DNA of 64,000 bases from Opitutia bacterium (lineage in GTDB: Bacteria; Verrucomicrobiota; Verrucomicrobiia; Opitutales; Opitutaceae), in contig JACRHT010000016.1 in assembly GCA_016217545.1 (NCBI GenBank), forward strand, positions 372,001 through 436,000, given 5' to 3'. The notes below the pieces were generated by a model. That model worked only from the letters and a program-made list of their open reading frames with translations, did no database searches and was not told the DNA's origin. The position numbers and the translations under genes are program-made. Positions within the stretch are counted from its first letter, which is position 1; the number at the start of each line of letters is the position of its first letter. Of the stretch, positions 17,609 to 36,990 are shown piece by piece.

Positions 17609-17624
17609 GGCGTGCAATATCTCC

Positions 17625-21070: not shown

Positions 21071-22138
21071 ATGGGATCGATCACGATGGCCACCCTCGCC
21101 CGCGAACTGAACGTGTCGAAGAACACCGTCTCGCTGGCGTTGCGCCACGATCCGCAGATTCCGCCCGAGACGCGCGCGCGCGTCCACGCCGCCGCGGAAC
21201 GCCTCGGCTACGCACGCAATCCCGTCGTCGCGCACCTGATGTCCGAGCTGCGCAAGCACGCGCAGGGAAAATCCAAGCACACGCTCGCCGTGCTCAATGC
21301 GCACCGCGACCGCGACGCTTTTCGCACGCATCCGACGATCCCCACTTACGTCGCCGGCATCCGCCGCCGCGCGACCGCGCAAGGTTACAGCATCGACGAG
21401 TTTTGGCTGCACGACCCGCAGCTCGACGGCGCGCGACTCAACCGCATCCTCCGCGCCCGGGGCATTCGCGGCGTCATCGTGGTCGGCCTCATGGAGGAAA
21501 ACCGCTTGCCCGAGCGTTTCGCGGGCACATGGAAAGCCCACGCGTGCGTTGTTACCGGCGTGCGCACGCACGAGCCGACGCTTTCGTTCTGCTGTGTCGA
21601 TCACCACGCGCTCGTGCTGCAGGCCTGCGAACGCGCGCTCGCGCTCGGCTACCGACGGCCCGCACTTGTGATCGACGAACGCATCGATCGGCTCGTCGAG
21701 GGACGCTTCACGTCGGGCATGATGATCGGGCAGCAAGGTTTGCCGGCCGCCGACCGCGTCGCGCCCTTCTACGCCGTCGAGGCGGCGCGGCAGGACCCGC
21801 GCGAGTTCTACGCGTGGCTCGAGCGCGAGCGCCCGGACGTGGTTTTCACGCTCTACCGCTTCGTCCGCCGCTTGATAGAGGCGCGTGGGCTCAAGGTGCC
21901 GCGCGATCTCGGCCTGCTCCAGCTCGAGCGCCGCGCCGAGGACCGCGATTGGGCGGGCATGGACCAACACAACGACCGCACGGGAGAGGCGGCCGTCGAC
22001 ATGGTGATCAGCCACCTGCACAACAACGAGTGCGGCGTGCCGGAGTTCCCGCGCGCGACGCTCATCGGCGCCTCATGGCAGACGGGAAAGACGTTGCGCC
22101 GCGTCACGAAGCGCGCCGGCGCGGCGGCGGTGCGCTAG
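21071..22138 (+). CDS. LacI-family transcriptional regulator of arabinose genes
   Basis: A 355-residue regulator. The N-terminal helix-turn-helix is clear (TMATLARELNVSKNTVSLAL at residues 5-24, with the following RVHAAAERLGYARNPV hinge region). The rest is a periplasmic-binding-like ligand domain (RGIRGVIVVGLMEEN, LGYRRPALVIDERID). It is divergent from araBAD, so it likely senses arabinose or a product of it. The putative operator at 21036-21048 supports autoregulation and control of ara genes. It ends convergently with the symporter gene, their stop codons overlapping. Confidence 0.85.
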   Translation: MGSITMATLARELNVSKNTVSLALRHDPQIPPETRARVHAAAERLGYARNPVVAHLMSELRKHAQGKSKHTLAVLNAHRDRDAFRTHPTIPTYVAGIRRRATAQGYSIDEFWLHDPQLDGARLNRILRARGIRGVIVVGLMEENRLPERFAGTWKAHACVVTGVRTHEPTLSFCCVDHHALVLQACERALALGYRRPALVIDERIDRLVEGRFTSGMMIGQQGLPAADRVAPFYAVEAARQDPREFYAWLERERPDVVFTLYRFVRRLIEARGLKVPRDLGLLQLERRAEDRDWAGMDQHNDRTGEAAVDMVISHLHNNECGVPEFPRATLIGASWQTGKTLRRVTKRAGAAAVR

Positions 22139-23433
22139 CGTTTCTCCTCGGCGGGCGGCGGCGCGTCGTCCGGCGGGCGCTTATGCCAGAAGTTCGCGAG
22201 GATCGAGCCGGAGATGTTCATCCACGGGCTGAAGATTGCCGGCGCCAAGCCGACCGTGCCGAGCTTGCCCATCGCGCCCGCCAGGCCGGACGCCATGCCG
22301 CCATTCTGCAGGCCGACTTCGAACGCCACCGAGCGCGCTGAGCTTTTATCGAGGCCCGCCGCGCGACTCAGCCAGTAGCCGAAAAAGTAGCCGGCCGCGT
22401 TGTGAATCACTGAGGCAATGAAGAGCAGCGCGCCAACCTTCAGGAGGTTGTCGCGGCCGGCCGCGGTCGTGACGGTCGTGAAGTAAACAATGCCCGCCAT
22501 CGAGAACAGCGGCATCAAGCCATCGAGTTTCGGCAGCAGGCGCGTGAGTTGATGGTAAGCGACGCCGACCGGGATGGCGGTGAGCAGGAAGCCGGCAAGC
22601 TCGAGCGCAAGTTGCGCGGTGGCGGGCCACGCCGTGACCGCCGGGGCGTCGTGCACGACGAAGATCCCGATGACCGCCGCGCCCGCGGCGAGTTGCGCGA
22701 CGACCCACCGCCGGTAGCTCGCCGGCGTAACGTGCTTCAGGTGGTCGTGAATGAGCGCCGCCGCGATCGGCACGATGACGATCTTGATGATCTCGATCAT
22801 CATGTTGAGGAACTTCACCTCGACCAGCGTGCCCGCCAGCAGCTTCATCAGCAGCGGCGTCATGAACGGCGCCACGAGCGTCGTGATCGCGGTGACGGTG
22901 ACCGACAACACGAGATTCGAGCGTGCGAGATACGCCATGACATTCGACGCGAGCCCGCTCGAGCACGAGCCGATGAGAATGATGCCGGCGGCAATTTCCG
23001 GTGGGAACGCGAAGAGCTTCGTGAGACCGAAGCCCACGAGCGGCATCACGGAAAAATGGCAAATGATGCCGACGAGCACACCGCGCGGCGTTTTCACGAC
23101 GCCCGAGAAATCGTGCAGGCTCATCTGCGTGCCCATGCCGAACATCACCGTTTGGATGACGAGAAGGATGAGCCACTTGTTGCGCAGATCGAAGTCGCCG
23201 ACCTTCAGAAACGCCGACGGGAAAATCATCGCCGCCACAACCGCGGTGACGATCCACGCCGTGAACTGATAGCCTTTGAGCGACGGCACGGCGCCGAGGC
23301 CGATGGCGAGCGACGCCGTTGCGACGACGGCCGCCGCCGACCACACCGACGTCAGGCCGAGCGCCAGACCGGCGAGCAGGGCGAGCGCAGCGGCCGCAGC
23401 AAGGCCAAGACAGAGTTTGCGGAAAGCGAGCAT
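22135..23433 (-). CDS. Bile acid:sodium symporter (SBF)-like carrier
   Basis: A 432-residue integral membrane protein with about ten to eleven hydrophobic segments and the SBF/BASS-type features TQMSLHDFSGVVKTPRG, PLVGFGLTKLF, IILIGSCSSGLASNVMAYLA and EVGLQNGGMASGLA (the sodium-site crossover regions). The family transports organic acids, often with Na+. It is the last gene of the twelve-gene minus-strand unit, next to an acid-sugar kinase and a RuBisCO-like gene, so uptake of a sugar acid such as an aldonate is a reasonable guess, not a demonstrated role. Its ATG at 23433 is followed upstream by a hairpin. Confidence 0.8.
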   Translation of the reverse strand: MLAFRKLCLGLAAAAALALLAGLALGLTSVWSAAAVVATASLAIGLGAVPSLKGYQFTAWIVTAVVAAMIFPSAFLKVGDFDLRNKWLILLVIQTVMFGMGTQMSLHDFSGVVKTPRGVLVGIICHFSVMPLVGFGLTKLFAFPPEIAAGIILIGSCSSGLASNVMAYLARSNLVLSVTVTAITTLVAPFMTPLLMKLLAGTLVEVKFLNMMIEIIKIVIVPIAAALIHDHLKHVTPASYRRWVVAQLAAGAAVIGIFVVHDAPAVTAWPATAQLALELAGFLLTAIPVGVAYHQLTRLLPKLDGLMPLFSMAGIVYFTTVTTAAGRDNLLKVGALLFIASVIHNAAGYFFGYWLSRAAGLDKSSARSVAFEVGLQNGGMASGLAGAMGKLGTVGLAPAIFSPWMNISGSILANFWHKRPPDDAPPPAEEKR

Positions 23434-23501: not shown

Positions 23502-24164
23502 CTACGTCAGCAGCTTCGCGAGGTGCGCGATCGCGAGCGGCGGACTGGCGAGAATCGGGATGCGACGATCCTCCGGCGCGAGCGTGTCGACCACGCGCGC
23601 CATCGAGGCCTGCGCCAGCACGATCACGTCGACTTGCGCCACGAGCTGCCGCAACGCGGCGGAGACGAGCGCGTCGTGCTTCGCGGCGTCGCCGGACATC
23701 AGCGCTTCGAAGGCGCCTTCGACGAGCACCGCGGTGAGTTCGATGTTCTTGCCCGCGGCGGCGGCGCGACGCTGGACGAGATCCTTGGTCGGATTGAGCG
23801 TGGTCGGCAGCGTCGCGATGACACCGATGCGTTTGCCCGTTTGCACCGCTTGATCGGCCATCGGCTGGTCCACACGGAGCACCGGCACCGCCGAGAACGC
23901 CGCCGACGCCTCGACCGCCGGCCCGATTGACGAGCACGTGACGAGCACGTAGTCGGCGCCGCCCGCCTCGGCGGAAGTGATGTAAGCCTGCACGCGGCGC
24001 GCAATGTCCGCCGTGAGACTGCCCTTCGCGCCGATGGCGCGGACGAGGCTGTCGTCGACGATGTTGAACGTGTCGACGTTCGGCAGCTGCGCCTTGCAAA
24101 GCTGCTGGAAGACCGGGACGAGCGTCGCGGAAGTGTGGACGAGAGCGAGCGTCTTGCGTTTCAT
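23502..24164 (-). CDS. Asp/Glu racemase-like protein with a single catalytic Cys
   Basis: A 220-residue protein of the aspartate/glutamate/hydantoin racemase superfamily: ALVHTSATLVPVF at the start, VLVTCSSIGPAVE with Cys77 in the first catalytic position, and GVIATLPTTLNPT. At the second position, where racemases have a second Cys, the sequence is VIVLAQASMARVV, with no Cys. A two-base racemization is therefore doubtful; single-Cys members of the wider family include decarboxylases and isomerases. It lies 8 bp after the DUF1537 kinase gene in the presumed apionate-type block, so it may act on a sugar acid. No specific reaction can be assigned. Confidence 0.75.
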   Translation of the reverse strand: MKRKTLALVHTSATLVPVFQQLCKAQLPNVDTFNIVDDSLVRAIGAKGSLTADIARRVQAYITSAEAGGADYVLVTCSSIGPAVEASAAFSAVPVLRVDQPMADQAVQTGKRIGVIATLPTTLNPTKDLVQRRAAAAGKNIELTAVLVEGAFEALMSGDAAKHDALVSAALRQLVAQVDVIVLAQASMARVVDTLAPEDRRIPILASPPLAIAHLAKLLT

Positions 24165-24172
24165 GGGAAAAT

Positions 24173-25483
24173 TCAGAGCGCGCCGCGTTGCACGGCGCCG
24201 AAGTAGTCAGGCGCACCGACCTGGCCGCCCTTGAAATTCACCTCGAGTCCGTGCACGGCGCGCTGCCTCGAATGCGCGCGGCATAACGGCGCGCCGGGTG
24301 CGAGCGGGGCGACCATTTCGACCGCCTCGATGCCCAGCGCGCGCGCGGCGTAACTCGAAGTGTCGCCACCCGCGACGAGCACGCGCGGGAGCGACTCGGA
24401 CTCGACCAGCGTGCGCGCAATCGTGCCGAGGGCTGTGCCCAGCGTGACGGCGGAGGCGGGCGCGCCGGTTTGCTGCCCGCGCGCGGTGAAGACGAGCGGG
24501 CTCTTGCCGGCGCGCAGCGCAGTGCGCGCAGCGGCGATCGCTGGGTCAATCTGCGGCGCCTGCGCATCGAGCGGGATGCCGACGAAGCCGTTGCCCAGCG
24601 CCCAATCGATTTGTCCCGCCGTGACCGGCGAGCAGCTGCCGGAAACCACGAGCAGGCGTTCGACGCGGGCCGCCGGCGCCCACTCGGTGCGCGGCTGCAA
24701 GCTCCCCTGCTCTGCCCAATGCGCGCCAAGCGCCATCTCGACGCCGGACGAGCCGACGGAGAAAACCGGTGCGCCGCCCGTCGCGGAATCAATCAGGCCG
24801 CCGATGCGCGCGAGCTGGCTCGCTTGCATGACGTCGAAGAGGACGACCTCCGCTCCGCCACCGACGATGCGCTCGAGCGCCGCCGCCGCTTCCGTCGCGG
24901 GAAGCTCAACTTTCAGGAGATCGAACAAGCCGATGCGCTTCGCCGTTTGCTTCGCGAGATGCAGGCGCAAATCCGCCTCGTCCGCCGGCGTGACCGGATG
25001 CCGGCTCATCGACGGATGGCGATCGAGTCGGTAGATTTCGCCCGCACTGCCGATGCCCATCCGCGCGAACAGGTTTCCGAAGGCACAATAACGCCCTAGC
25101 GCCGGAGCGCCGACGAGCAGCGGGACGTAGCGCCCGCCGAAGAGTGCAACGCCAACGTCGATCGCGCGTCCGATGCTGCCCACCTTCGGAGATGAGTCGA
25201 AGGTCGAGCACACCTTGTAGTGCACGTGACGCGGGCCGAGTTCACGCAGCGCCGCGAATGCCGGACGCAGCACGGCTTCCATCTCTGTCGGCGGCAACGA
25301 GCGCGTGAGTCCGGCGACGCCGAGGGCGTCGAGCGCGGGCATCGCCGCGAGCCGTTCGCGCGACGGCGGTTCGAGGAAGAGCGCGGTGCGCAGGCCCGCG
25401 CGCGAGAGAAATTCCAGCGCGTCGGTCGACCCGGTGAAGTCGTCGCCGAAATACGCGAGCCGGAGCTGTGCAGGCTTGCCCAT
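24173..25483 (-). CDS. DUF1537 four-carbon-acid-sugar-kinase-family protein, OiaK-like
   Basis: A 436-residue kinase of the DUF1537 family. The N-terminal domain begins LRLAYFGDDFTGSTDALEFL, with HYKVCSTFDSSPKVGSIG, and the C-terminal nucleotide-binding domain has LLVVSGSCSPVTAGQI and VLVAGGDTSSYAAR. Known members phosphorylate D-threonate, D-erythronate, 2-oxo-tetronate or 3-oxo-isoapionate. Its start overlaps the stop of the RuBisCO-like gene by one base (TAATG), so the pair is tightly coupled. Family knowledge links that pairing to 3-oxo-isoapionate kinase (OiaK) and the 4-phosphate transcarboxylase/hydrolase (OiaX). The specificity is inferred from context only. Confidence 0.85.
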   Translation of the reverse strand: MGKPAQLRLAYFGDDFTGSTDALEFLSRAGLRTALFLEPPSRERLAAMPALDALGVAGLTRSLPPTEMEAVLRPAFAALRELGPRHVHYKVCSTFDSSPKVGSIGRAIDVGVALFGGRYVPLLVGAPALGRYCAFGNLFARMGIGSAGEIYRLDRHPSMSRHPVTPADEADLRLHLAKQTAKRIGLFDLLKVELPATEAAAALERIVGGGAEVVLFDVMQASQLARIGGLIDSATGGAPVFSVGSSGVEMALGAHWAEQGSLQPRTEWAPAARVERLLVVSGSCSPVTAGQIDWALGNGFVGIPLDAQAPQIDPAIAAARTALRAGKSPLVFTARGQQTGAPASAVTLGTALGTIARTLVESESLPRVLVAGGDTSSYAARALGIEAVEMVAPLAPGAPLCRAHSRQRAVHGLEVNFKGGQVGAPDYFGAVQRGAL

Positions 25484-26727
25484 TACTTGCTGCCGAATTT
25501 CGCCTGCGACTTTGCGAGCAGTGGATGTATCGCGACCGCTTGCTCGACCGTGAGCCCTGCGACGGCAGCTTCCCACCAGAGCTGTAGCGAGCGCACGCCC
25601 GCTGCGGCACCATCCGGGTGCGCCTGGATGCCGCCACCAGCCATATACAGGAGATCAACAGTCTGCGTGCGCCGCCAGGTCTCGGGCGCCTGGCCGCCCC
25701 ACTGGCCGGAGGAGACCACCGACAACAACGGCTTGCCGAGCGGTTCGCTCGCGCGGCACGACGCGATGGAGCGCACGACCGAATCGTCATTTTCCCAGAA
25801 CTTGTTGGCGATGCCGTTGACGTGGAGTTGGTCGACGCCGGCGAGACGCTGCAGCTTTTGGTAAGCGGGAAATTCGATGCCGAGCAGCGGGTGGCGGTTG
25901 AGCATGCCCCAGCCGTTGCGATGCCCGTGGATGGAGAGCTCGCCGCGATCGCACAGCTTCTTCGTGGCGGCGAGGCCGACGCTGTTGATGCTGATCATTG
26001 CGCACGTGCCGCCGCTCGCGACGACTTTGTCGTAGTGGCGCTGCATCGCATCGAGTTCGTCGGAGATGTTGAAGGCATACATGACCTTCTTGCCGGTGCG
26101 CTGCGCGTGGTCGTTGATCACACGCATGATGGCGTCGACCCGCGCGTCGAACGGCGAGTGCGGCGGATCGGCCATCAGCTCATCGTCCTTCACGAAATCG
26201 ATGCCGGCCTCGACAAGCACGCGGACCATCTCCGCGGTCTGCGCGGGCGAGAGGCCGATGCTGGGCTTGATGATCGTGCCGATGAGCGGCCGGCCCTCGA
26301 CACCGGTGAGACGGCGCGTGCCGGCGATGCCGAACGCCGGACCGCGGAACTTCGCGGCGAACGATGGTGGCACGTCGAAGTCCATCAGCTTGAGGCCGGA
26401 GAACTGCGCGAGTTCGTAGAGATTGCCCTGGAGCGTCGAGACGAGCGTCGGGAGATTCGTGCCGAAGTTCTCGATCGACCACGACACCTTCACCTCGGCG
26501 CGCCGATAACTCGCCGCGGGCGCGCGACCGGTCGGGATCGCCGGCATCGCGACCGTGTCGAGCGGCTTGATCGCCTCCACCCGCGCGGCGAAGCGCTGCT
26601 TCAGCTCTTCGGTCTCGCCGGGCACGGCGACGAAGGTGCCGGACGATTGCTCGCCGGCGAGTGTCGCGGCGGCTTTTTCGACCGGCAGCGCCGTCTCGAT
26701 GAGATAGGTGGCGGTGACTCGCTCCAT
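25483..26727 (-). CDS. RuBisCO-like protein (form IV), OiaX-like candidate
   Basis: A 414-residue RuBisCO-large-subunit-like protein. The start at 26727 matches form IV proteins (MERVTATYLIE). Active-site equivalents visible: Lys154 in KPSIG, the metal-site run Lys180-Asp-Asp182-Glu183 in DFVKDDEL, the HGHRNGWGML His region, Lys in NGIANKFW and the GGGIQAHPDGAAAG loop. So the metal-binding machinery is intact, but loops differ from true CO2-fixing RuBisCO (DPPHSPF after KDDEL). In sequence style and partner (DUF1537 kinase) it fits the RLP that converts 3-oxo-isoapionate 4-phosphate to 3-phosphoglycerate and glycolate. MtnW-type and other RLPs are less likely because no methionine-salvage genes are near. 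Confidence 0.88.
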   Translation of the reverse strand: MERVTATYLIETALPVEKAAATLAGEQSSGTFVAVPGETEELKQRFAARVEAIKPLDTVAMPAIPTGRAPAASYRRAEVKVSWSIENFGTNLPTLVSTLQGNLYELAQFSGLKLMDFDVPPSFAAKFRGPAFGIAGTRRLTGVEGRPLIGTIIKPSIGLSPAQTAEMVRVLVEAGIDFVKDDELMADPPHSPFDARVDAIMRVINDHAQRTGKKVMYAFNISDELDAMQRHYDKVVASGGTCAMISINSVGLAATKKLCDRGELSIHGHRNGWGMLNRHPLLGIEFPAYQKLQRLAGVDQLHVNGIANKFWENDDSVVRSIASCRASEPLGKPLLSVVSSGQWGGQAPETWRRTQTVDLLYMAGGGIQAHPDGAAAGVRSLQLWWEAAVAGLTVEQAVAIHPLLAKSQAKFGSK

Positions 26728-26735: not shown

Positions 26736-26860
26736 GGTTAACCACGAATGGACACGAATAGACACGAATGAAAACCGGCGGCGTCACGAAAGCTCGCCAC
26801 GTTCAGCCGACTTTCAGCTCTGTGTCTGGATTCGTGTGCATTCGTGTTCATTCGTGGTTT
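26736..26860. repeat. ACACGAAT/ATTCGTGT long inverted repeat
   Basis: Left arm at 26736-26775 with units CCACGAAT-GGACACGAAT-AGACACGAAT, right arm at 26821-26860 with the inverse ending CATTCGTGGTTT. The spacer is about 45 bp. It fills most of the gap between the dehydratase gene and the RuBisCO-like gene. Confidence 0.85.
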
Positions 26861-26876: not shown

Positions 26877-27989
26877 TCAAAGACGGTTGATCTGCTGCAG
26901 CGCCGCGAGCGTGGGTTCCATGCCGGCGCCGGGTGCTTCCGGCGCGACGAAGTGGCCGTCGCGGATCTGCGCCGGATGCTTCATCCAATCGTGCAGCCAC
27001 GGAATATACTCGAGCAGCGCGCAACCGGGGTGCGCGAAACAGAGGTGTTGGTGCACCTGGCACATGTCGCCGACGTGCGGCACCACCGGCAGGCTGTAGC
27101 TGTGGGCGAGATCCGCGACCTGCCACCACTCGGTCACGCCGGCGAGGCGGACGACGTCGGGCTGCACGTAATGCACCGCGCCCGCATGGATGAAGTCGCG
27201 GAACTGGTGCGCGAGGTAGAGCTGTTCGCCCAACGCGATGGGCGTCTCGATCGTCTCGGCGAGGCGACGGTGGGCGAGCACGTCGTCGAACGTCGTCGGC
27301 TCTTCGAACCACACCACGTCGAACTCCGCGAGGCGACGGCCGAGGCGGATCGCGTCGGGCAGCGCAAGTTTGCCGTTCGCATCGGTCATGATGCGAATCT
27401 CCGGCCCGAGCGCGGCGCGGACGGCTTCAAGGCGGCGGAGATCGGTGGACGGATTCGGACTGCCGACCTTGATTTTCACCGCGCGGTAGCCGCCGGTTTC
27501 GACGAGGCGTCGGCAATCCGAGACGAGCGTCTCGATCGGCCAGTTGAGCCAGCCGCCGTCGGTGTTGTAGGCTTCAACGCGCTTGGCCGCGGAGCCGCCG
27601 AGCAATTTCCACAACGGCAAACCGGCGGCCTTCGCCTTCAGATCCCAGAGCGCGATGTCGATGGCGCCGAGCGCGAGATGCGTGATGCCGGCGCGGCCAA
27701 CCCAGTAGATCGGCGAGTGCTTGTGCAGCTTCTCCCAGAGCGCGCGGACCTCGCGCGGATCCTCGCCGATGAGCAGCGGGCCGAAGGAGTCGACCGCGCA
27801 CTCGACGATGAGCTGGTCGGTCGGCAGGTGCGCGTGCGTGCCGGAAAACCCGTAGCCCACGAGACCGGTGTCCGTGTGAATCGCCACGCCGGGCGCGCCC
27901 CAGTGCGTGATGCTGTGCGTGCTGTCCGCGATGCCACCGCGCGTGACGGGCGCGTGCAGGATGATCGGTTGGAGGCGAGTGATTCTCAT
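26877..27989 (-). CDS. Enolase-superfamily (mandelate racemase/MLE) sugar-acid dehydratase
   Basis: A 370-residue protein with capping domain and barrel. Catalytic positions seen: VKIKVG with Lys172/Lys174 at the end of the second barrel strand, metal ligands Asp203 (MTDANG), Glu229 or Glu230 (WFEEP) and Glu255 (ALGEQ), and a late His in VVPHVGD. This residue set fits dehydratases or racemases acting on acid sugars. The N-terminal loop residues that set specificity (HSITHWG, YGFSGTHAH) do not let me name the substrate. It is coupled to the GH78 gene by an ATGA overlap, which argues for L-rhamnonate or a related aldonate, while the following RuBisCO-like gene points to apionate chemistry. Confidence 0.85.
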   Translation of the reverse strand: MRITRLQPIILHAPVTRGGIADSTHSITHWGAPGVAIHTDTGLVGYGFSGTHAHLPTDQLIVECAVDSFGPLLIGEDPREVRALWEKLHKHSPIYWVGRAGITHLALGAIDIALWDLKAKAAGLPLWKLLGGSAAKRVEAYNTDGGWLNWPIETLVSDCRRLVETGGYRAVKIKVGSPNPSTDLRRLEAVRAALGPEIRIMTDANGKLALPDAIRLGRRLAEFDVVWFEEPTTFDDVLAHRRLAETIETPIALGEQLYLAHQFRDFIHAGAVHYVQPDVVRLAGVTEWWQVADLAHSYSLPVVPHVGDMCQVHQHLCFAHPGCALLEYIPWLHDWMKHPAQIRDGHFVAPEAPGAGMEPTLAALQQINRL

Positions 27990-30715
27990 GCGAGCGCCAG
28001 TGTGCTGGTGAACGTATAGGTGCCCGCCGGCGCTTCGCACACCGCGAAACCGTCAGCGCGCTCGACGACCGTGAGGCCATCGCTACCGACAACCACGCCG
28101 GGCGCGCAGGGAATGTGGACGCGCGCGCTGGTGTTGGCCGGCACGGTGACGGTCCACTCGAAGCGCGCGCCCTCGCGGCGCCATGCGCTGCGGATCTCGC
28201 CGTTGATCGAGCGATAGCTGCCGCTCGCGTGAGCGAGCCCCTGCCCCACGAACGGCCGCAGCACGAAACGCTGGTAGCCGGGCGCGTCCGCATCGAGCTC
28301 GATGCCAAGGACGTGGCGGAACAGCCACTCGCCCACCGAGCCGAGCGAGTAGTGGTTGAAGGAGTTCATGCCGTCCTTGTGGAAGCCGCCGGCGATCGTC
28401 CAGCTGTCCCAGCGTTCCCAGATCGTCGTCGCGCCCTGCAATACCGGGAACAGCCACGACGGATAACTTTCCTGCAACAGCAGCCGGTAAGCGACGTCAG
28501 CGCGGCCGGCGAGTGTGAGCTGCGGGTTCAGATGCCCGATGCCGACGAAACCGGTGCTGAGGTGCCAGTCGAGGTCGCGGATGTTCGCCACGAGATGCTC
28601 GGCGGCCGCGGCGCGGAGATTTGCCGGCAGGAGATCGAAGGCGAGCGCGAGCAGATAGGCGGTCTGCGTTTCGACGGCGATGCGTCCGTCGGGGCGCACC
28701 CACTCAGCTTGGAACGCGGCGCGCACTTTCTCGAACATCGCCTGGAAGCGCGCGGCGTCCGCGTGGCGGCCGAGCGCGCGCGCGAGCCGCGCCATCTTCG
28801 CGGCGTCGTCCGCCCAGTAGGCGGTCGCGAGCAGGTTCTTCATCGGCGAGTGCGTGCCGAAAGACGTGTCGCTCGGGATGCAGAGCCAGTCGCCGTAATT
28901 GTTGCCGAGCTGGTTGAGGCGAAGACCGTCCGGGTTGTGGCGCTCGATCCAGTCGAGCCAGCGCACCATCGCGCTCCAGTGGCGCTCGACGAGGCGCAGG
29001 TCGCCGTAGACGCGCCAGAACGTGTAAGGAATAATGATGCCCGCGTCCGCCCAGCCGGCGGCGCCGCCGAGATTGCCGAGGCCGACCCAGTTGATGTCCT
29101 CGCGCAGGCGCGGCGCGATGTCGGGAAAAACGCCGTCCGGCGTCTGCGCGTCCTCAACGTCGATCATCCACTTCGTGAAGAACGCCGCGACGTCCATGTT
29201 GCACGTCGCCGTGCGGAAGAACACCTGCGCGTCGCCCATCCAGCCAAGGCGCTCGTCGCGCTGCGGGCAATCGGTCGGCACCGAGAGAAAATTATCGCGC
29301 TGCGACCAGACGCCGTTGAGCCAGAGGCGATTCACGCCGGCGTGCGAGCACTCGAAATGCCCGGCGGGCGGCGTCGCCGAGTGGATCACGCAGCCCGTGA
29401 TCGTCCCGAGCGTAGGCGTGAACCGGTAACCTAATAGGTTACCGTTCTTGGGGACGGTCGCGGTGAGTTCGACGTATTGGAAACCGTGGAAGGTGAAATG
29501 CGGCTCGAAGATCTCGAGGCCGCCGCCGCGACACACGTAGACGTCGGTTGCCTTCGCGCGGCGCAGATTGGCGGTGTAGAGCGTGCCATCGGGATTGAGC
29601 CGCTCGCCATGGCGCAACTGGACGCGCGTGCCAGCCGGCGCCTCGACGGCGAGACGAATCCAGCCGGTCATGTTCTGCCCCATGTCGTAGAGATGCACGC
29701 CGGGACGGATCTCCGTGCGGGAAACCGGGGCCCGCATCTCGGTGACGCGGACGGGCTCGCTGCGTTGGGCGACGAGCGGCGCCGCAGGTGCAGCGACCTC
29801 TCGCGCCGGCAGCCAGTCGCGCGGCGCGCGGCGGGCGTCGTAGACTTCGCCCATCTGCATGTCCGAGGAAAGGATCGGACCGGTGGCGCAACGCCACTGT
29901 CCATCTGTGCCCAGCGTGACGCGCGAACCGTCTGCCAGCTCAACTTCGAGTTGCAGCCGCAGGCTGTTCTCGAGCGAACCGTAGCGGCCCTTCGTCTCCT
30001 GCCAGCCGACGAAGCCCGACCACCAGCCATCGCCGAGCGTGATGGAAAATTCGTTGGTCCCGGCGGCGAGCAGCGCCGTGACGTCGTAGGTGCGGTAATG
30101 GATGCGCTTCTCGTAGTCGGTCCACTCCGGCGCGAAGAGATCGTCGGTCACACGGTGGCCGTTGGCGCGGAGGTCGAGCAGTCCGCGCGCGGTGGCGAAG
30201 AGCGTGGCGCGCTTGATGGCGTCCGGGAATTGGAACTCCCGGCGGAAAACCGCCGGCGTGCCGGGCTCGGTGAGGGTGGCCGTGATGGCCTCTGGATCCA
30301 GGCGGGTGATGGCGGGATCGGCCGCGATCCACTTCGCGCTCCAATCTCCGGGTTCGAGCAACCCCATCGTCCAGAGTGCGGGCGCCGAGCGCGCGCTCGC
30401 ACCGGTTTCATCCCAGACCTCCACCTGCCAATGGCACGCATCGCGCGACTGCAGCGCGCGACCCGCGTAGGCGATGTGCGTGGTTCGCGCACTCTCGACC
30501 CGGCCGCTGTCCCAGCGATCTGCGTCATCCGCGGCGAGTTTCCCAGGCGTCGAGGCGACGCGCACGCGGAACGCCACTTGGCGCGCGCCGCGACGGCGGC
30601 TCTCGAGGAGCCAGCTCAGCCGGGGACTACGCTCGTCGACACCGAGGGGATCGACGAGGTATTCACAGCGGAGGGAGATGACGCGGGTATCGGACACGAT
30701 TGTTTCAGTTGTCAT
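27986..30715 (-). CDS. GH78 alpha-L-rhamnosidase
   Basis: A 909-residue protein with the GH78 order: fibronectin-like and jelly-roll N-terminal domains (RCEYLVDPLGVDERSPRLSW, WSAKWIAAD), the (alpha/alpha)6 catalytic domain with VPTDCPQRDERLGWMGDAQ, and a C-terminal beta-sandwich (GSYRSINGEIRSAW). No signal peptide is visible, so it may be cytoplasmic or its leader is lost. The ATG at 30715 is the last bases of a dispersed repeat (30711-30789), so the native start may have been displaced. Near residues 424-430 the protein has NLLGYR, encoded by an 18-bp palindrome found also at 7016-7033, where relatives usually have a plain loop. It is coupled to the dehydratase gene downstream. Confidence 0.9.
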   Translation of the reverse strand: MTTETIVSDTRVISLRCEYLVDPLGVDERSPRLSWLLESRRRGARQVAFRVRVASTPGKLAADDADRWDSGRVESARTTHIAYAGRALQSRDACHWQVEVWDETGASARSAPALWTMGLLEPGDWSAKWIAADPAITRLDPEAITATLTEPGTPAVFRREFQFPDAIKRATLFATARGLLDLRANGHRVTDDLFAPEWTDYEKRIHYRTYDVTALLAAGTNEFSITLGDGWWSGFVGWQETKGRYGSLENSLRLQLEVELADGSRVTLGTDGQWRCATGPILSSDMQMGEVYDARRAPRDWLPAREVAAPAAPLVAQRSEPVRVTEMRAPVSRTEIRPGVHLYDMGQNMTGWIRLAVEAPAGTRVQLRHGERLNPDGTLYTANLRRAKATDVYVCRGGGLEIFEPHFTFHGFQYVELTATVPKNGNLLGYRFTPTLGTITGCVIHSATPPAGHFECSHAGVNRLWLNGVWSQRDNFLSVPTDCPQRDERLGWMGDAQVFFRTATCNMDVAAFFTKWMIDVEDAQTPDGVFPDIAPRLREDINWVGLGNLGGAAGWADAGIIIPYTFWRVYGDLRLVERHWSAMVRWLDWIERHNPDGLRLNQLGNNYGDWLCIPSDTSFGTHSPMKNLLATAYWADDAAKMARLARALGRHADAARFQAMFEKVRAAFQAEWVRPDGRIAVETQTAYLLALAFDLLPANLRAAAAEHLVANIRDLDWHLSTGFVGIGHLNPQLTLAGRADVAYRLLLQESYPSWLFPVLQGATTIWERWDSWTIAGGFHKDGMNSFNHYSLGSVGEWLFRHVLGIELDADAPGYQRFVLRPFVGQGLAHASGSYRSINGEIRSAWRREGARFEWTVTVPANTSARVHIPCAPGVVVGSDGLTVVERADGFAVCEAPAGTYTFTSTLALA
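29425..29443. repeat. 18-bp palindromic repeat, copy 2, inside the GH78 gene
   Basis: GGTAACCTAATAGGTTACC, a 19-base exact palindrome around one A, within coding sequence. The 18 bases 29426-29443 are identical to 7016-7033. On the coding strand it reads in frame as NLLGY between two beta-strands. Confidence 0.85.
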
Positions 30716-30813: not shown

Positions 30814-32103
30814 TCAGGCGCGCTCGGCCTCGATTTGTTCGAGCGACTTGCCCGAGGTGTCGGGCATGAAGAAGTAACCGACCACGCCGCTGATCGCGAG
30901 GAACAGCGTGAGGAGGCCGGCGATCTGCTTGATGCCGGCGTGCGCGAGGATCGGCACGAAGAAGCTCCAGATGCCGAGGATCGTGCGCGCGATGCCGAAT
31001 GTGAAACCTTGCGCGGTGCCGCGCAGCGCCGTGGGGAAAAGTTCCTGGCTGAACACCTTGTAGAACGCCTCGCCCGAGAGCGCGGCGCTGGCGGAGAACA
31101 GCACGATGTTGCAGATGACGGTCGTGATCGTGAACGGGAAGAACAGGAAAAGACCGTAGGAGATCGTCTGCATCACGGCACCGACGCCCCAGATCAGTTT
31201 GCGCGTCTCGTAGGACTTGTCCGAGTAGCGCATGAAGATCGTCACGGTCACGATCATCGTGATGACGAAGTTGGCGCTCGAGAGGCCGACGCTCATCGCC
31301 TGGCCGCCCGCGTGGAGCGTGGAGATGATGTAGGGGTTGAAAATGCCCGCGGTGCCCGCGGCGAGATTCCAGAAGAGATAGATCGTGGCGGTCCAAACGA
31401 TGGCCTTGAGGTTCGAGCCCTTGAAGAGCAACGCGAGGTTCTGCCCGACGGCCTGGCCGGACTTCGCCGCCTGGGTCCAGCGCGCCGACTCGGCGAGGCC
31501 GCGGCGCAACGCCCACGTCACCACGGCGACGACGAACAGGTGGAGGAACACGATGCGGATGCCGAGCAGGCCGAACGGCGCGAGGGCCAATGCCATCCAC
31601 AGGACGATCACCGGACCGAGACACCACGCGACCTGCGTGAAGCCAAGGAGCTTGCCGCGCGCCTTGTCGGGTGCGAATTCGCCCACGAGCGCGAGCGACG
31701 TCGGGACGTCCGCGCCGACGGCGACGCCGACGATGAACGTGCCGAGGAACAGCATCTCCTTGTTCTGGCACAGCGCGCAAAGGAGGATGCCGAACGCGTA
31801 GACCATGAGGTCGTATTGGTAGATCTTCTTGCGGCCGAGTTTGTCGCCGAGCCAGCCGCCGATGAGCGCGCCGAGCGCGCAACCGAGGGCGTTCGGGCCG
31901 ATGGCCGCGAGCACGCCGACGGCGGTGTCGCTCATGCCGAATTCCTTCTGGAGGATCGCGAGGCCGGCGCCGAGGGCGACAATCGAGCCGGCGTCGAGAT
32001 ACGACGCCATGCCCGCGAGCGCGGACCATTTCCATTGCTGGGCGGTGATGGCGGTGCCGTCGCCGGCGGGGCCGGCAGGAGCGGAGGACGTGACTTGACT
32101 CAT
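30814..32103 (-). CDS. MFS sugar transporter
   Basis: A 429-residue major facilitator protein with about twelve hydrophobic segments. The first loop GGWLGDKLGRKKIYQYD and the GADVPTSLALVGEFAPDKARGKLLG stretch place it in the sugar/metabolite (YdjK/YgcS-like) group of the MFS; a C-terminal FPTALRGTAQGFTFGIAR repeat of the motif is also present. It lies between the GH127 and GH78 genes with short gaps (28 bp to GH127), so it probably imports a monosaccharide or small glycoside released by these enzymes across the inner membrane. Confidence 0.87.
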   Translation of the reverse strand: MSQVTSSAPAGPAGDGTAITAQQWKWSALAGMASYLDAGSIVALGAGLAILQKEFGMSDTAVGVLAAIGPNALGCALGALIGGWLGDKLGRKKIYQYDLMVYAFGILLCALCQNKEMLFLGTFIVGVAVGADVPTSLALVGEFAPDKARGKLLGFTQVAWCLGPVIVLWMALALAPFGLLGIRIVFLHLFVVAVVTWALRRGLAESARWTQAAKSGQAVGQNLALLFKGSNLKAIVWTATIYLFWNLAAGTAGIFNPYIISTLHAGGQAMSVGLSSANFVITMIVTVTIFMRYSDKSYETRKLIWGVGAVMQTISYGLFLFFPFTITTVICNIVLFSASAALSGEAFYKVFSQELFPTALRGTAQGFTFGIARTILGIWSFFVPILAHAGIKQIAGLLTLFLAISGVVGYFFMPDTSGKSLEQIEAERA

Positions 32104-32131: not shown

Positions 32132-34192
32132 TTAGCGGGCAGGAATCCAGACGGTCATGTCGGCTTCGCCGCGATTGCCCCATGCGTAGTAAGGCACGGC
32201 TTTCACGGCAATGGTGCGCGGGGCTTGACCGTCAACCTGTCGATAGAGCTGCTTGCCGGTCCATTCCGGTCGCTGCAGCGCGAGGGCGTCGAAGGTGAGC
32301 GTGAGCACGGAAGCGTTGACGATGCGCTCGCGCTGCGCGGTGAAGTTCGCGGGCTTCTGCAGTGAAAGCGCCACGTCCTTCAGCTGCACGCCGGCCGGGA
32401 GATCGGTCGACTCGAGGCAGTAGACGAGCGGACCGTATTTGATCGTGACCTGGTCGACGGTCTCCTCGACGAGCGGGTTCGCTTCCCAGAGCGTGGCCTT
32501 GAACTCCATGTCGAACTGCACGACATCGCCCTTCTTCCAGGTGCGCTTCACGTCGGCGTAGGAGCCGGGCTTGCGCGCGGCGGCGACGGGCTGGCCGTTA
32601 ATCTTGAGGGAGACTGCTTCGCTTTTGAGCCAACCCGGGACGCGCAGCTTCAGCGTCACGTCGCGGGCGGGCGCTTCGTCGACGATGATCTTCACGGCGC
32701 CGGCCCACGGGTAGTCGGTTTCCTGCCGGAGCTTGATCGGCGTGCCGTCGAGCCACTTCGACTCGAGCGTGCTGGCGGCGTAGAGGTTCACCCACACGGT
32801 GTCGGGCGAGAGCGCGTAGACGTAGTTGTGCATCTCCACGATCGTGCGGACGACGTTCGGCGGGCAGCAGAAACTCACCGGGATGTTCGCCTCGCGAGTG
32901 CGCGACCAGCGGAGCGGCACGTCGAATTCGCGGAGCTTCTTCAGCACGTTGACGTAGAAGTAGTGCGTGCCGTCGAGGCTGATGCCCGGGAGAATGCCGT
33001 TGTAGAGCGTCTGCTCGAACAGGTCCGCGTAACCGGCGTCGCCCGAGACGGCCAGCATGCGCCAGAGCCACATGCCGTAGCCGATGGTGGCGCAGGTTTC
33101 GTTGTAGGCGGTGAGGTTCGGCAGCTGGTAATCACGACCGTAGGCCTGATGGATCGTCTTGATGTATTTGTGCTGCGTGTAGTCGACGCCGTCGGGCGAG
33201 GCGCCGTCGTAGATCGCACCGGTCATGCCGGTGATGTAGAGCTTTCGGTCCGCGACGTTCTCGGAAATTGTCTCCAGCGTCTTGAGCAACGACTTGTCGC
33301 CATCCTCGGCGAAGACATCCGCGACACCGGCGTAGAGGTAGTTCGCGCGCACGGCGTGGCCGACGGCCTGGGTCATCTGGCGGAACGGCATGCGGTCCTG
33401 ATTGTGGTCGCTGCCTTCGTTCGGCGGCACGAGGCTCCGAATCTCGATGAGTTGCTCCGCGAGCTTCAGGTAGCGCGGCTCGTGGGTGACGCGATAGAGC
33501 TCCACCACGCCCATGTAGTGCGACGGGCAGATGGCGTTACGCGCGAGTTCCTGCGGTTTCTCGGCGCAAAGCTTGTCGATGTAGTCGGCGGCCTTGCGCG
33601 CGCAGTCGAGCAGCGTGGTCTTGCCGGTCGCGCGGTAATGGACGCACGCCGCCGTCATGAGGTGCCCCATGTTGTAGGTCTCGAAGTGCTCGCGATCCGC
33701 GAACTCCTTCGTCTTTTCTCCGTTGCGCTGCGGGATGATCGTCTGCGTGTGCAGGTAGCCGTCCTCGCGCTGGGCCTTGGCGACGACCGCGATGATCTCG
33801 TCCATCTGCCGGTCGAGGGCGGGATCCTTCGTCACGGCGTAGACCTGCGCGAGCGCTTCGAACCATTTCAGAAAATCGCCGTCATTGAACGGCGGGCCGG
33901 AGAACTTTCCCTGCTCCAGCCCGGCGGCGATGCGGTAGTTGCGCCACGCGGGACTCGTCGCCGGGTTGCTCATCAGCTCGCCCATGTGCGGCACCATCGA
34001 GGTGCGCGCGACCTCGAAGCGCTCGCCGAGCAGGCCGCCCTGCCAGCGCACGTCGCCGAGATCGGGCATATACATCCGGGCCTGCGGCGAGCGCGTGGTG
34101 TCAATCAACGCCTTCTCCGCTGCCGAACTGGCGCACGGCGCTAGCGCGATCAACCCCAGGACAACGGGAACGAGAACAGCGGAGTGTTTCAT
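32132..34192 (-). CDS. GH127-family glycosidase (beta-L-arabinofuranosidase type)
   Basis: A 686-residue secreted protein (signal MKHSAVLVPVVLGLIALAPCASSA). The GH127 zinc/nucleophile set is complete: Glu and Cys of YNETCATIG near residue 364 and the Cys pair of FCCPPN near residue 441, matching Glu338, Cys340, Cys417 and Cys418 of HypBA1. The catalytic barrel begins around GDVRWQGGLLGERFEVAR, and the C-terminus has a beta-sandwich (VTLKLRVPGWLKSEAV). GH127 enzymes cleave beta-L-arabinofuranosides, and some act on aceric acid in rhamnogalacturonan-II. It lies 16 bp after the FGGY kinase gene. Released arabinose would feed araBAD. Confidence 0.9.
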   Translation of the reverse strand: MKHSAVLVPVVLGLIALAPCASSAAEKALIDTTRSPQARMYMPDLGDVRWQGGLLGERFEVARTSMVPHMGELMSNPATSPAWRNYRIAAGLEQGKFSGPPFNDGDFLKWFEALAQVYAVTKDPALDRQMDEIIAVVAKAQREDGYLHTQTIIPQRNGEKTKEFADREHFETYNMGHLMTAACVHYRATGKTTLLDCARKAADYIDKLCAEKPQELARNAICPSHYMGVVELYRVTHEPRYLKLAEQLIEIRSLVPPNEGSDHNQDRMPFRQMTQAVGHAVRANYLYAGVADVFAEDGDKSLLKTLETISENVADRKLYITGMTGAIYDGASPDGVDYTQHKYIKTIHQAYGRDYQLPNLTAYNETCATIGYGMWLWRMLAVSGDAGYADLFEQTLYNGILPGISLDGTHYFYVNVLKKLREFDVPLRWSRTREANIPVSFCCPPNVVRTIVEMHNYVYALSPDTVWVNLYAASTLESKWLDGTPIKLRQETDYPWAGAVKIIVDEAPARDVTLKLRVPGWLKSEAVSLKINGQPVAAARKPGSYADVKRTWKKGDVVQFDMEFKATLWEANPLVEETVDQVTIKYGPLVYCLESTDLPAGVQLKDVALSLQKPANFTAQRERIVNASVLTLTFDALALQRPEWTGKQLYRQVDGQAPRTIAVKAVPYYAWGNRGEADMTVWIPAR

Positions 34193-34208
34193 GCGTGGGC
34201 GGACAAGT

Positions 34209-35702
34209 TCAGGGTTCGCGGGGGAAGATCGTCTGTCGCACCGCGTGACGCCAGCCCAACGCGAGCTCCGCGACGCGAGCATCGTCCATCATCGGACGAT
34301 ACACCCGGCCCGCTCGCGGCGTGGTCGCGAGCTCGTCGAGCGAGGAAAAAACGCCGAGCCCGAGCAACCCCGCACTGACGGCGCCAAACGCCGAGCATTC
34401 CGCGAACGGTGCGAGCCGCAACTCGGCGCCGGTGACGTCCGCCGTGAACTGCATCAAAAACCGGTTGTTGGTCGGGCCGCCGTCCGCGTGGATCGCGCTC
34501 ACCTCGAGCGCGGCGTCGGACCGCAGGGCCTGCAGCGCGTCGCGCAACTGGAACGCGATCGATTCCTGGGCCGCGCGCAGCACGTGTCGGCGGTCGCTGT
34601 GCGTCGTCAGGCCAACGATCGTCGCGCGCGCATCGGCCTTCCAATACGGCAGACCGAGCCCCGAGAAAGCCGGCACGAGGTAGACGCCGCCATTGTCCGG
34701 CAGCTCGGTCGCCATCGCCTCCACGCCGTCGAGCGAGTCGACGAGTTTCAACTGGTCGCGCAACCACGTGAGCGTCGACGCCGCCGCGATGATGATGCCT
34801 TCGAAAGCGTAGGTCGGCGCGCCATCGCGCACCCAAGCGAGCGCGGTCACCACGCCTTGCGACGAACGGCGGAACTCGCCGCCGATGTTGAGCAACACCG
34901 ACGAGCCGGTGCCCAGCGTCACCTTGGCGGAGCCACGCGCAAAGCAACCGTGCGCGAACAACGCGGCCTGCGAGTCGCCCATCACGCCGCAAATCGGGAG
35001 CGCCCGCGGCAGAATGCCGTCCACCGTGGTCGTCCCGAACCGCGCAAAACTCTCGCGCACCTCGGGCAGCGCCTGCGGGGGAACTTGCCACAGCGCGCAC
35101 AGCTCCGCGTCCCAACGCAGGCGGCGCACGTCGAACAGGAGCGTGCGGCTCGCGTTCGTGTGGTCGGTCGCGAACACGGCGCCGCGCGTGAGACGGTAGA
35201 TCAGGTAGGCGTCGACGGTGCCGATGAGCGCCGCGCCGCTCTCGAGTTGCGCGCGAAGATCGGGACGCTCACGCACGAGCCACTGGAGCTTCGACGCGGA
35301 GAAATACGGATCGATGCGCAGACCGGTGCGCGATTGGACGAGTTCATCGTGCCCGGCGGCGGCGGCTTCGGCGCAAAGCTTCTCGCTCCGGCGGCACTGC
35401 CAGACGATCGCGCGATGCAACGGGCGGCCGGTGGCGCGATCGAAAACGACGATCGTCTCGCGTTGATTCGTGAGACTGAAACCGAGGATCTCCCCCACCT
35501 CCGCGGCATGCCGCGCGAGCAGCGCGCGGATCGCCGCGAGGACGTTCTGCCAGATTTCCTCGGCATCGTGCTCGACCCAGCCCGGCTGCGGGTAGTGCTG
35601 CGCGTGGTCGCGCGACTCCTTGTCGAGCAGACGCCCATCGGTCGCGAAGAGCATCGCCTTCGTGGCGGAGGTGCTTTGGTCGACGGCGAGGACGAAGGGC
35701 AT
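34209..35702 (-). CDS. FGGY-family carbohydrate kinase, glycerol-kinase-like, apulose-kinase candidate
   Basis: A 497-residue FGGY kinase. It has the N-terminal VLAVDQSTSATKAMLF phosphate loop, FSLTNQRETIVVFD, GDSQAALFAHGCF, the LGTGSSVLLNIG segment and the LPYWKADARATIVGLT region typical of the glycerol kinase branch, with HADGGPTNNRFLMQF at the end. True glycerol metabolism genes (GlpF, GlpD) are absent nearby. Its neighbours are a sugar isomerase and both halves of a transketolase, which is the arrangement known for D-apiose: isomerase, apulose kinase, apulose-4-phosphate transketolase. That makes apulose kinase the leading guess, with glycerol or another ketose as alternatives. Confidence 0.85.
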   Translation of the reverse strand: MPFVLAVDQSTSATKAMLFATDGRLLDKESRDHAQHYPQPGWVEHDAEEIWQNVLAAIRALLARHAAEVGEILGFSLTNQRETIVVFDRATGRPLHRAIVWQCRRSEKLCAEAAAAGHDELVQSRTGLRIDPYFSASKLQWLVRERPDLRAQLESGAALIGTVDAYLIYRLTRGAVFATDHTNASRTLLFDVRRLRWDAELCALWQVPPQALPEVRESFARFGTTTVDGILPRALPICGVMGDSQAALFAHGCFARGSAKVTLGTGSSVLLNIGGEFRRSSQGVVTALAWVRDGAPTYAFEGIIIAAASTLTWLRDQLKLVDSLDGVEAMATELPDNGGVYLVPAFSGLGLPYWKADARATIVGLTTHSDRRHVLRAAQESIAFQLRDALQALRSDAALEVSAIHADGGPTNNRFLMQFTADVTGAELRLAPFAECSAFGAVSAGLLGLGVFSSLDELATTPRAGRVYRPMMDDARVAELALGWRHAVRQTIFPREP

Positions 35703-35719
35703 GGAATTCTCGAACCAGT

Positions 35720-35816: not shown

Positions 35817-36875
35817 TCAGGGAGCCAGCAGTGCGAGCGCGGTGTCGCGCAGGGCCTCCATGCTGATCCCGTAGTGCCGGAACAGATCGGCTTGGGCGCC
35901 AGTGACAGTGTCTTCGTCGGGGAAGCCGACCATCTTGAACTTCGGGGCGAGGCCGGTTTGCAGCAACGTCGCGGCGACCGACTCCCCCAGCCCGCCCGCG
36001 AGCATGTGTTCCTCGACGGTGACGACCGCGCGACACTCCCGCGCCGCCGCGAGCACCGCGGCGGTGTCGAGCGGTTTGATCGTGTGGAAACTCAGCACGC
36101 GGGCGCTGACGCCTTTCTCGGCCAGCGCCGCGGCGGCGAGCAGCGCGTGGACGACGGTCTCGCCGCTCGCGAGGAAAGCGACGTCGGTGGTGGGAGCGAG
36201 CTTGCTCGCGACGGCTCCCGCTGAAGTCGGGAGCAAGCTCCCTCCCACAGGATAGATGACACGGGCACGTCCGGCCTCAAACGAGCCGTCCGCATGGGGA
36301 AGATCCAGCATCGCGGCCTTGCCAAAGCGCAGGAACACCGGGCGCTTCGCCGCGGCAGCGTAGCGGACGGCTTCGCGCGTCTCGAAGTTGTCGGCGGGCG
36401 CAATGATCGTGATGTTGTGGATCGCGCGCATCACGGCGAAGTCGTGCAGCGAGTGGTGCGTCGAGCCGAGCGCGCCGTAGCTGACGCCGGCGCTGATGCC
36501 GACGAGCACGGCGGGGACATTCGAGTAGCAGATGTCATTCTTGATCTGCTCAAGCGAACGCGCGGTGAGGAAGCACGACGGCGAAACGCCGAACGGTTTT
36601 TTGCCGCAGGCGGCGAGGCCGGCGGTGATGCCGACGAGGTTCTGCTCGGCGATGCCGACCTCCACGATCTGTTTCGGCAGCGCTTTGCCGTAGGGAGCGA
36701 GTTTGCCGGAGCCGCGCGAGTCGGAGGTGACGGCGACGATGTTGCGGTCGGTGGCCGCGAGCGTGAGCAAGGTGTCCGCGAACTCCTCGAGATTGGCGCG
36801 GCCTTGCTTGAGGCCGAGTTTCCCGGCCATCGCCTTGGCGGCGGGCGTGAACATGGACGGTGCGGGCGCGCTCAT
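35817..36875 (-). CDS. Transketolase C-terminal subunit (split transketolase)
   Basis: A 352-residue protein covering the pyrimidine-binding and C-terminal domains of transketolase. The start at 36875 (MSAPAPSMFTPAA) precedes the conserved NIVAVTSDSRGSGKL and the catalytic Glu in VEVGIAEQNLVGITAGLA. The C-terminal domain has VLSFHTIKPLDTAAVL and VVTVEEHMLAGGLG. Between strand RARVIY and TDVAFLASG, about 20 residues (VGGSLLPTSAGAVASKLAP) are encoded by a REP-like two-hairpin element (36190-36249), in frame. The partner subunit lies 115 bp upstream. With the isomerase and kinase it fits apulose-4-phosphate transketolase (AptB-type); a sulfosugar transketolase is an alternative. Confidence 0.85.
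   Translation of the reverse strand: MSAPAPSMFTPAAKAMAGKLGLKQGRANLEEFADTLLTLAATDRNIVAVTSDSRGSGKLAPYGKALPKQIVEVGIAEQNLVGITAGLAACGKKPFGVSPSCFLTARSLEQIKNDICYSNVPAVLVGISAGVSYGALGSTHHSLHDFAVMRAIHNITIIAPADNFETREAVRYAAAAKRPVFLRFGKAAMLDLPHADGSFEAGRARVIYPVGGSLLPTSAGAVASKLAPTTDVAFLASGETVVHALLAAAALAEKGVSARVLSFHTIKPLDTAAVLAAARECRAVVTVEEHMLAGGLGESVAATLLQTGLAPKFKMVGFPDEDTVTGAQADLFRHYGISMEALRDTALALLAP
36190..36249. repeat. REP-like element inside the transketolase gene
   Basis: Outer ends GTGGGAG / CTCCCAC, inner hairpins GCGAGC-TT-GCTCGC (36196-36209) and GGGAGC-AA-GCTCCC (36229-36242). The plan resembles the TGTGGGAGC...GCTTGC REP words of Pseudomonas. It is a multiple of three and keeps the reading frame open. 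Confidence 0.8.
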
Positions 36876-36892
36876 CGATTCGCCTCCTGGGA

Positions 36893-36969
36893 GAGCCCGC
36901 GTCCTCGCGGGCCGGGGTGCGCGGGTGTGAACCGGATAACGTTCGCGGCCCGCGGGGACGCGGGCCCTC
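36893..36969. repeat. Inverted repeat between the transketolase subunit genes
   Basis: GAGCCCGCGTCCTCGCGGGCC (36893-36913) faces GGCCCGCGGGGACGCGGGCC (36947-36966); each arm is itself nearly palindromic. It lies in the 115-bp gap between the two transketolase genes, where a tighter junction would be expected. Confidence 0.75.
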
Positions 36970-36990
36970 CTGCGCAATGCCGGGGCGCGC

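Follow-up and report, generated by a model that had tools for sequence, protein, structure and literature searches.

A widespread four-gene module around a RuBisCO-like protein probably allows bacteria to consume aceric acid

INTRODUCTION

In the D-apionate route, ApnO makes the substrate of the kinase OiaK, 3-oxo-isoapionate (CH2OH-CO-C(OH)(COO-)-CH2OH), and RuBisCO-like proteins (RLPs) of the OiaX-type group act on a phosphorylated 2-carboxy-3-keto sugar. Here, we describe a 64,000-nucleotide stretch of an Opitutia bacterium (contig JACRHT010000016.1), referred to throughout as the window and used for all coordinates, in which an RLP gene adjoins the gene of a DUF1537 (four-carbon acid sugar) kinase. 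With a probability of roughly 0.55, we propose that this pair is the core of a four-gene catabolic module for L-aceric acid, the other two members being an Asp/Glu/hydantoin racemase-fold protein and a BASS-family transporter.

L-Aceric acid, or 3-C-carboxy-5-deoxy-L-xylose, is a rare, branched sugar acid; plant pectin contains it in side chain B of rhamnogalacturonan II. According to PMC12168206, it was identified in 1983. A hydrolase that frees it is already known, PMC10850190 and PMC5698469 both giving BT1003 as the rhamnogalacturonan II aceric acid hydrolase. Among the matches listed in the open-access literature, none was a published pathway for aceric acid use, and such a pathway would probably be new.

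RESULTS AND DISCUSSION

The RLP and its kinase are nearest to OiaX and OiaK but miss the curated cut-offs

Both genes are intact open reading frames (ORFs) on the minus strand (Table 1), at the positions given in a preliminary description of this DNA, and the RLP stop and the kinase start have one base in common (AAGTAATGGGC, a TAATG-type junction). While an overlap of this type is one seen in coupling, the two genes remain separate ORFs, and their earlier portrayal as "translationally fused" was too strong. The RLP carries the Pfam domains RuBisCO_large (PF00016, 197 bits) and RuBisCO_large_N (37 bits). It is of form IV; that is, the catalytic domain is present, and the scores fall below the cut-offs of the form III and general large-subunit models. 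In its own genome, it is the only RuBisCO-family match. The kinase contains both halves of DUF1537 (SBD_N, 184 bits; NBD_C, 103 bits) and is thus a member of that kinase family.

Residues K180, D182, and E183, previously pointed out as part of the metal site, are indeed kept in the translated RLP. When aligned with solved RLPs and a RuBisCO, the protein likewise keeps the equivalents of E60, T65, N123, K175, H294, R295, H327, K334, and S379 as well as the GGG motif, and departs from the RuBisCO residues at the equivalents of K177 (Ser) and W66 (Phe); the residue numbers and roles used here are those of RuBisCO. The closest solved structure by sequence is the RLP 3NWR, with a nearly full-length match of 386 bits.

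For both proteins, the top NCBIfam matches are the enzymes of the D-apionate route, and the preliminary description had linked the pair to them. OiaX and OiaK are indeed the nearest named families, but the scores of 507 bits (OiaX model NF042437) and 440 bits (OiaK model NF042436) both stay far under the curated equivalog cut-offs of 700 bits. As a control, an OiaX from Rhizobium, accompanied by an ApnL that scores 1051 bits, reached 783 bits in the OiaX model. Matches to other acid-sugar kinases of the DUF1537 family are much weaker (174 bits for 3-oxo-tetronate kinase and 47 bits for the D-threonate kinase DtnK), and the window kinase differs from these by its RLP partner. A 39-row tree places the RLP of the window in a clade (bootstrap 98, SH-aLRT 92) of Verrucomicrobiota and Bacteroidota rows, which also holds one unplaced bacterium and, basally, one Phycisphaerae row. 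This clade is sister (98/97) to the single Rhizobium OiaX row, which has a long branch.

Another possibility is that the RLP is a methionine-salvage enolase (MtnW) or a carboxylating RuBisCO, since both models do match it weakly. However, the scores (128 bits against a cut-off of 513.6 for the MtnW model TIGR03332, and 212 against 497 for form III RuBisCO) speak against either assignment, the RLP of the module is always paired with a DUF1537 kinase, and the K177 equivalent is a serine. We give this possibility practically no weight and, in agreement with the preliminary description, place the RLP outside MtnW.

A four-gene module is gained or lost as a unit

A contig scan returned 401 relatives, the best 80 loci of which were kept. 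Together with the window, two plasmid loci (L020 and L021), and eight loci from whole genomes, these made up a set of 91 loci, or 89 after removal of the duplicates L026 and L027. The genes of the RLP, the DUF1537 kinase, the racemase-fold protein, and the BASS transporter are complete in 79 of the 89, mainly in Verrucomicrobiota and Bacteroidota, and lie on one strand in 73 of these 79. The remaining six, all from Dyadobacter (L061, L067, L068, L075, L077, and L097), have the transporter and racemase-fold genes inverted. Among the 10 incomplete loci, six are shorter than 12 kb (L040, L056, L063, L101, L108, and L110). The remaining four comprise L021, a member of another clade in which the last two genes are missing, L047, which is without the transporter, and L053 and L071, which show the RLP alone. 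Since the RLP-kinase pair recurs in scores of genomes, its occurrence in the window is not due to chance. The junction at the RLP stop is an ATGA in 27, a TAATG-type overlap in 19, and something else in 43 of 89 loci, counted in 89 of the 90 loci other than the window (one being too short) with the two duplicates left in.

The four genes are also carried by a Rufibacter plasmid, where they show 57-70% identity and stand among pectin genes. The module is gained or lost as a unit. The operon of genome G497 (locus L124) matches those of L074, L089, and L098 at 75-95% identity per gene, minus the module: its ORFs for a glycoside hydrolase of family 127 (GH127) and an esterase are separated by 88 bases with none of the four module genes between them, and no RLP was found in that genome at E 1e-40. 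Genome G143 (L123) has the isomerase, transketolase, FGGY, and GH127 genes of the window plus a GH78, again without the module. Families that recur in the loci are GH106, GH78, an esterase, and DUF5703.

Several loci have features of their own. In Mucilaginibacter and Arcticibacter (L082, L086, L092, L105, and L110), two tandem family III CoA-transferase genes and solute-binding-protein genes lie upstream of the module. Pontibacter qinzhouensis has two RLP genes of this type (L050 and L053), and L053 is without kinase, racemase-fold, and BASS genes in its 21 kb. Further RLP-kinase systems are seen in Pseudomonadota and Rhodococcus (L116, L118, L119, L120, and L121), where RLP and DUF1537 pairs are accompanied by genes of the SDR, TRAP, or MFS type and an ApnO-type gene is missing from the stretch shown.

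In the racemase-fold protein, C77 is invariant (84/84), and two further columns are Cys in 68/84 and 66/84 sequences. At the site where the second catalytic Cys of racemases presumably lies, the protein reads LAQASM. A single invariant Cys, combined with this motif, makes an ordinary two-base racemase unlikely. A PDB sequence search gave no match for this protein. Its AlphaFold model has a predicted local distance difference test score (pLDDT) of 95, and among the 50 Foldseek matches listed, nearly all are glutamate, aspartate, hydantoin, and allantoin racemases at 10-21% identity, two arylmalonate decarboxylase chains being included; this fold comparison offered no clue to function. The transporter resembles PanS (220 bits, with a cut-off of 400), and the PanS model is named for ketopantoate, pantoate, and pantothenate, which are branched acids too.

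Full-length ApnO is absent from genomes with this RLP

As the preliminary description had suggested, the pair might serve the D-apionate route, in which case kinase and RLP would act, as OiaK and OiaX do, on 3-oxo-isoapionate and its 4-phosphate, respectively. We examined 44 carrier genomes, namely nine Verrucomicrobiota from a 288-genome sample of the phylum and those to which 35 of the 80 kept loci belong. Using a three-row profile, a full-length ApnO was found in none of the 44, and partial matches of 20-40 bits were found in six. The profile gave 501-542 bits for its own three rows and 397 and 450 bits for independent controls from Microvirga and Roseibium RLP loci; we take the protein named "phosphogluconate dehydrogenase C-terminal domain" to be ApnO. 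The lactonase ApnL did not reach its cut-off in any of the 44 genomes, with one weak split match in G311. The absence of ApnL is weak evidence, as only one of three ApnO-bearing control records reaches that cut-off. In addition, no EryH or EryI homologue was seen among the ORFs of the loci, to which this search was confined, and seven of the nine Verrucomicrobiota carriers have no apiosidase-family match.

The top NCBIfam matches and the sister position of a Rhizobium OiaX located with ApnL do speak for D-apionate. Nonetheless, with full-length ApnO absent from 44/44 genomes and both curated cut-offs missed, we reject this route as the main explanation and regard it as improbable. The preliminary description had OiaX yielding 3-phosphoglycerate and glycolate; in PMC6302742, decarboxylation is the reaction of one RLP, and transcarboxylation/hydrolysis that of another.

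The module goes together with a BT_1003-type hydrolase

The GH127 encoded in the window is nearest to PDB entry 5MQO (688 bits; next GH127, 361 bits), whose title is "Glycoside hydrolase BT_1003," and that of the Bacteroidota locus L060 matches the same entry at 885 bits (next, 411). Of the solved and characterised enzymes, BT_1003 comes closest to the GH127 of the operon, a protein that we class as BT_1003-type by sequence; the predicted GH127 model (pLDDT 68, middling) was used solely to name the nearest entry.

A GH127 with at least 49% identity to that of L060 is found in 44/44 carrier genomes, the genome of L060 being one of them. Within the Verrucomicrobiota sample (n = 288), nine genomes have the RLP (488-525 bits in the OiaX model), and eight weaker matches of 83-173 bits were scored negative. 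A GH127 at least 62% identical to that of the window occurs in 10 genomes, which are the nine RLP carriers and G143; in other words, it is found in 9/9 carriers versus 1/279 others (p 3e-16), and a gap in score separates the tenth genome (981 bits) from the next (564 bits). At a loose limit of E 1e-100, the counts are 9/9 versus 10/279. Within the family of the window alone, they are 8/8 versus 1/17 (p 8e-6, Fisher). The Bacteroidia sample (n = 295) represents the class of the L060 genome, as inferred from the genome name; here, a GH127 of at least 55% identity is present in 4/4 RLP carriers versus 6/291 others (p 7e-7; 2e-5 when the genome of the query is left out), and in 4/4 versus 17/291 at the loose limit. 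In the Spirosoma order (177 genomes of the order of the L085 genome, overlapping with the Bacteroidia sample), the counts at 62% identity or above are 2/2 RLP carriers, one being the query's own genome, versus 10/175 (p 0.004); a third genome, with an RLP at 53% and probably of another clade, is not among the GH127 genomes. All of these p values ignore relatedness. Genomes with the hydrolase are without the module in 6/10 Bacteroidia, 10/12 members of the Spirosoma order, and 1/10 Verrucomicrobiota, so that the module implies the hydrolase and not the reverse.

Within the 89 loci, a GH127 is present in 37, in 15 of them at most 500 bp from the RLP, and all of these proteins except that of L021 are at least 47% identical to the one of L060. 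The GH2 beta-galactosidase family occurs in 23 loci, and GH127 or GH2 in 56; L021 is included in these counts though its GH127-like protein is of another type. According to PMC11739564, the GH2 enzyme BT_0993 cleaves Gal-beta-1,2-aceric acid. Together, the genes found in these loci suggest side chain B of rhamnogalacturonan II, the GH2 subtype being putative.

A separate arrangement is found on a Croceibacterium plasmid (L021:10175-14528), where a GH146-like gene annotated as beta-L-arabinofuranosidase, an RLP gene, and a kinase gene are consecutive, with overlaps of one and four bases. An esterase gene follows the kinase, no racemase-fold or BASS gene is present, and the RLP lies outside the module clade.

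A candidate pathway for L-aceric acid

We infer the substrate of the module, the steps from import to cleavage, and the products as follows. Aceric acid is proposed because its ketose isomer would be the methyl homologue of the OiaK substrate. The BT_1003-type GH127, in the same gene run here, would free the acid, and the BASS transporter would import it. An aldose-ketose isomerase would then produce, in the shape of either the racemase-fold protein with its one invariant cysteine or some sugar isomerase encoded elsewhere, CH2OH-CO-C(OH)(COO-)-CHOH-CH3. A simple aldose-ketose isomerisation would suffice at this step and make an oxidoisomerase unnecessary, which fits the absence of ApnO. The kinase is predicted to phosphorylate this ketose at C1, the CH2OH next to the ketone. 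With Mg2+ on carbamylated Lys180, the RLP would act on the resulting 2-carboxy-3-keto phosphate and is predicted to be a 3-C-carboxy-5-deoxy-L-xylulose-1-phosphate decarboxylase or transcarboxylase/hydrolase. Decarboxylation would yield 5-deoxy-pentulose-1-phosphate, to be split by an aldolase into dihydroxyacetone phosphate and acetaldehyde. Alternatively, the RLP would move the carboxylate and hydrolyse the product to 3-phosphoglycerate and L-lactate. The tree position beside OiaX leads us to prefer decarboxylation, if only weakly.

By a rule of our own, 15 specificity positions of the RLP differ between module rows and ApnO/ApnL-linked rows. V338, which adjoins the phosphate-binding serine, is Val in 24/24 module rows and Phe in 6/7 ApnO/ApnL-linked rows. 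This would suggest a fit to a bulkier substrate, although the position was picked after the fact and proves nothing. That all parts hold together, giving a new catabolic pathway for L-aceric acid with a new RLP reaction and a one-cysteine racemase-fold aldose-ketose isomerase, is a tentative proposal, which we rate as somewhat less likely than not.

Other substrates of the module

A number of points weigh against aceric acid. Both the isomerase and the aldolase are postulated, the racemase-fold protein as isomerase is a guess, and the activities of kinase and RLP on the aceric acid ketose are predicted. The hydrolase also occurs without the module, in the proportions given above, and the GH127-like gene next to the Croceibacterium RLP, itself outside the clade, is nearest to GH146 and not to BT_1003. 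Moreover, the GH127 of the window is only 43% identical to BT_1003, and GH127 members can switch substrate, a Zobellia GH127 being found in a carrageenan cluster (both in PMC5698469). The hydrolase might thus release L-arabinofuranose or an unknown sugar acid, with the module serving that glycan instead. However, the L060 protein is nearer to BT_1003 than the window's is, an RLP is not needed for L-arabinose, ara genes are present in the window itself, and pectin-type enzymes surround the module, all of which makes this alternative rather unlikely.

Apiose is the other sugar to be considered. Apiosidase-family proteins (PF13204) are present in 35/35 of the carriers reached through loci, namely 34 Bacteroidota and Pelagicoccus (G319, L109) of the Verrucomicrobiota. 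Aceric acid and apiose are therefore told apart only by the nine Verrucomicrobiota carriers of the phylum sample, eight of which belong to one family. The module could act on another branched acid of rhamnogalacturonan II, most likely derived from apiose, with as-yet-unknown enzymes in place of ApnO, for example a Gfo/Idh/MocA dehydrogenase together with the racemase-fold protein. Such a Gfo/Idh/MocA gene is seen in 17 loci, with ~24% identity to an OiaX-locus dehydrogenase. But since G497 keeps its Gfo gene without the module, this gene is not part of it, and a cofactor-free racemase fold alone would be incapable of oxidoisomerisation. The apiosidase family is also not enriched in Verrucomicrobiota with the RLP (2/9 carriers, weakly at 84 and 100 bits, versus 41/279; p 0.63), and the seven carriers that are without it include the window's own genome, where no apiosidase-like protein was found at E 1e-20. 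An apiose-derived acid is therefore unlikely, if still worth keeping in mind, and L-aceric acid is the substrate that we prefer.

Other genes of the window

All genes of the run in Table 1 lie on the same strand, with the racemase-fold and BASS genes downstream of the kinase and those from the enolase-like gene to the isomerase upstream of the RLP. Close relatives of the enolase-superfamily protein (85-96%) are confined to a subset of loci from the group to which the window belongs. The apulose-type transketolase of the preliminary description was not confirmed: its two halves are matched by general transketolase models alone, at scores under the cut-offs, and no specific model appeared. A PDB sequence search with the sugar isomerase gave no match.

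TABLE 1 Features in and around the RLP gene run of the window
Feature	Position	Strand	Remarks
BASS-family organic anion:sodium symporter, PanS-like	22135..23433	-	Fourth module gene; predicted aceric acid importer
Asp/Glu/hydantoin racemase-fold protein	23502..24164	-	PF01177; third module gene; isomerase candidate; starts 8 bases past kinase stop
DUF1537 (four-carbon acid sugar) kinase, OiaK-like	24173..25483	-	436 amino acids; domain and family matches
RuBisCO-like protein (RLP)	25483..26727	-	Form IV, sister clade of OiaX; 414 amino acids, ATG start, TAA stop
Palindromic intergenic repeat	26741..26858	.	Between enolase-like gene and RLP
Mandelate racemase/enolase-superfamily acid-sugar dehydratase-like protein	26877..27989	-	
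GH78 alpha-L-rhamnosidase	27986..30715	-	Start read from sequence
MFS transporter	30814..32103	-	Pfam
GH127 related to BT_1003	32132..34282	-	ORF as listed; true start may be further downstream
FGGY kinase, glycerol-kinase-like	34209..35702	-	545 bits, NF000756 cut-off 498
Split transketolase	35817..37824	-	C half 35817-36977, N half 36991-37824 (N-half start read from sequence)
L-fucose-isomerase-type sugar isomerase	37826..39250	-	Sulfoquinovose isomerase matched weakly (78 of 700 bits)

The isomerase, split transketolase, and FGGY kinase form a set (34209-39250), which could yield dihydroxyacetone for the kinase from an unphosphorylated ketose. We considered this set as part of the module and found no support for it; G143 has the set without the module, and the transketolase halves occur in only 10/95 and 11/95 loci.

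Palindromic repeats are also found at 35724-35805. Their unit, CCACGAATGxACACGAAT plus its reverse complement, has 8 matches versus 0.06 expected, and a looser copy was seen by eye near 17620-17700. Elsewhere in the window, a DUF3826 ORF (51092-51736) is nested in another frame of a longer ORF (50995-53577). The latter has no Pfam match, and its translation shares 45% identity with a polysaccharide lyase from Rufibacter; relatives of both the DUF3826 protein and the lyase are present in L020 and L104 as well.

Implications

The four-gene module is widespread, and it probably lets bacteria eat aceric acid. If this is true, the substrates of the RuBisCO superfamily would be extended by one, and its reactions possibly as well, and the RLP clade described here would no longer be read as OiaX. 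As a genetic marker, the module would then also point out bacteria feeding on side chain B of rhamnogalacturonan II.

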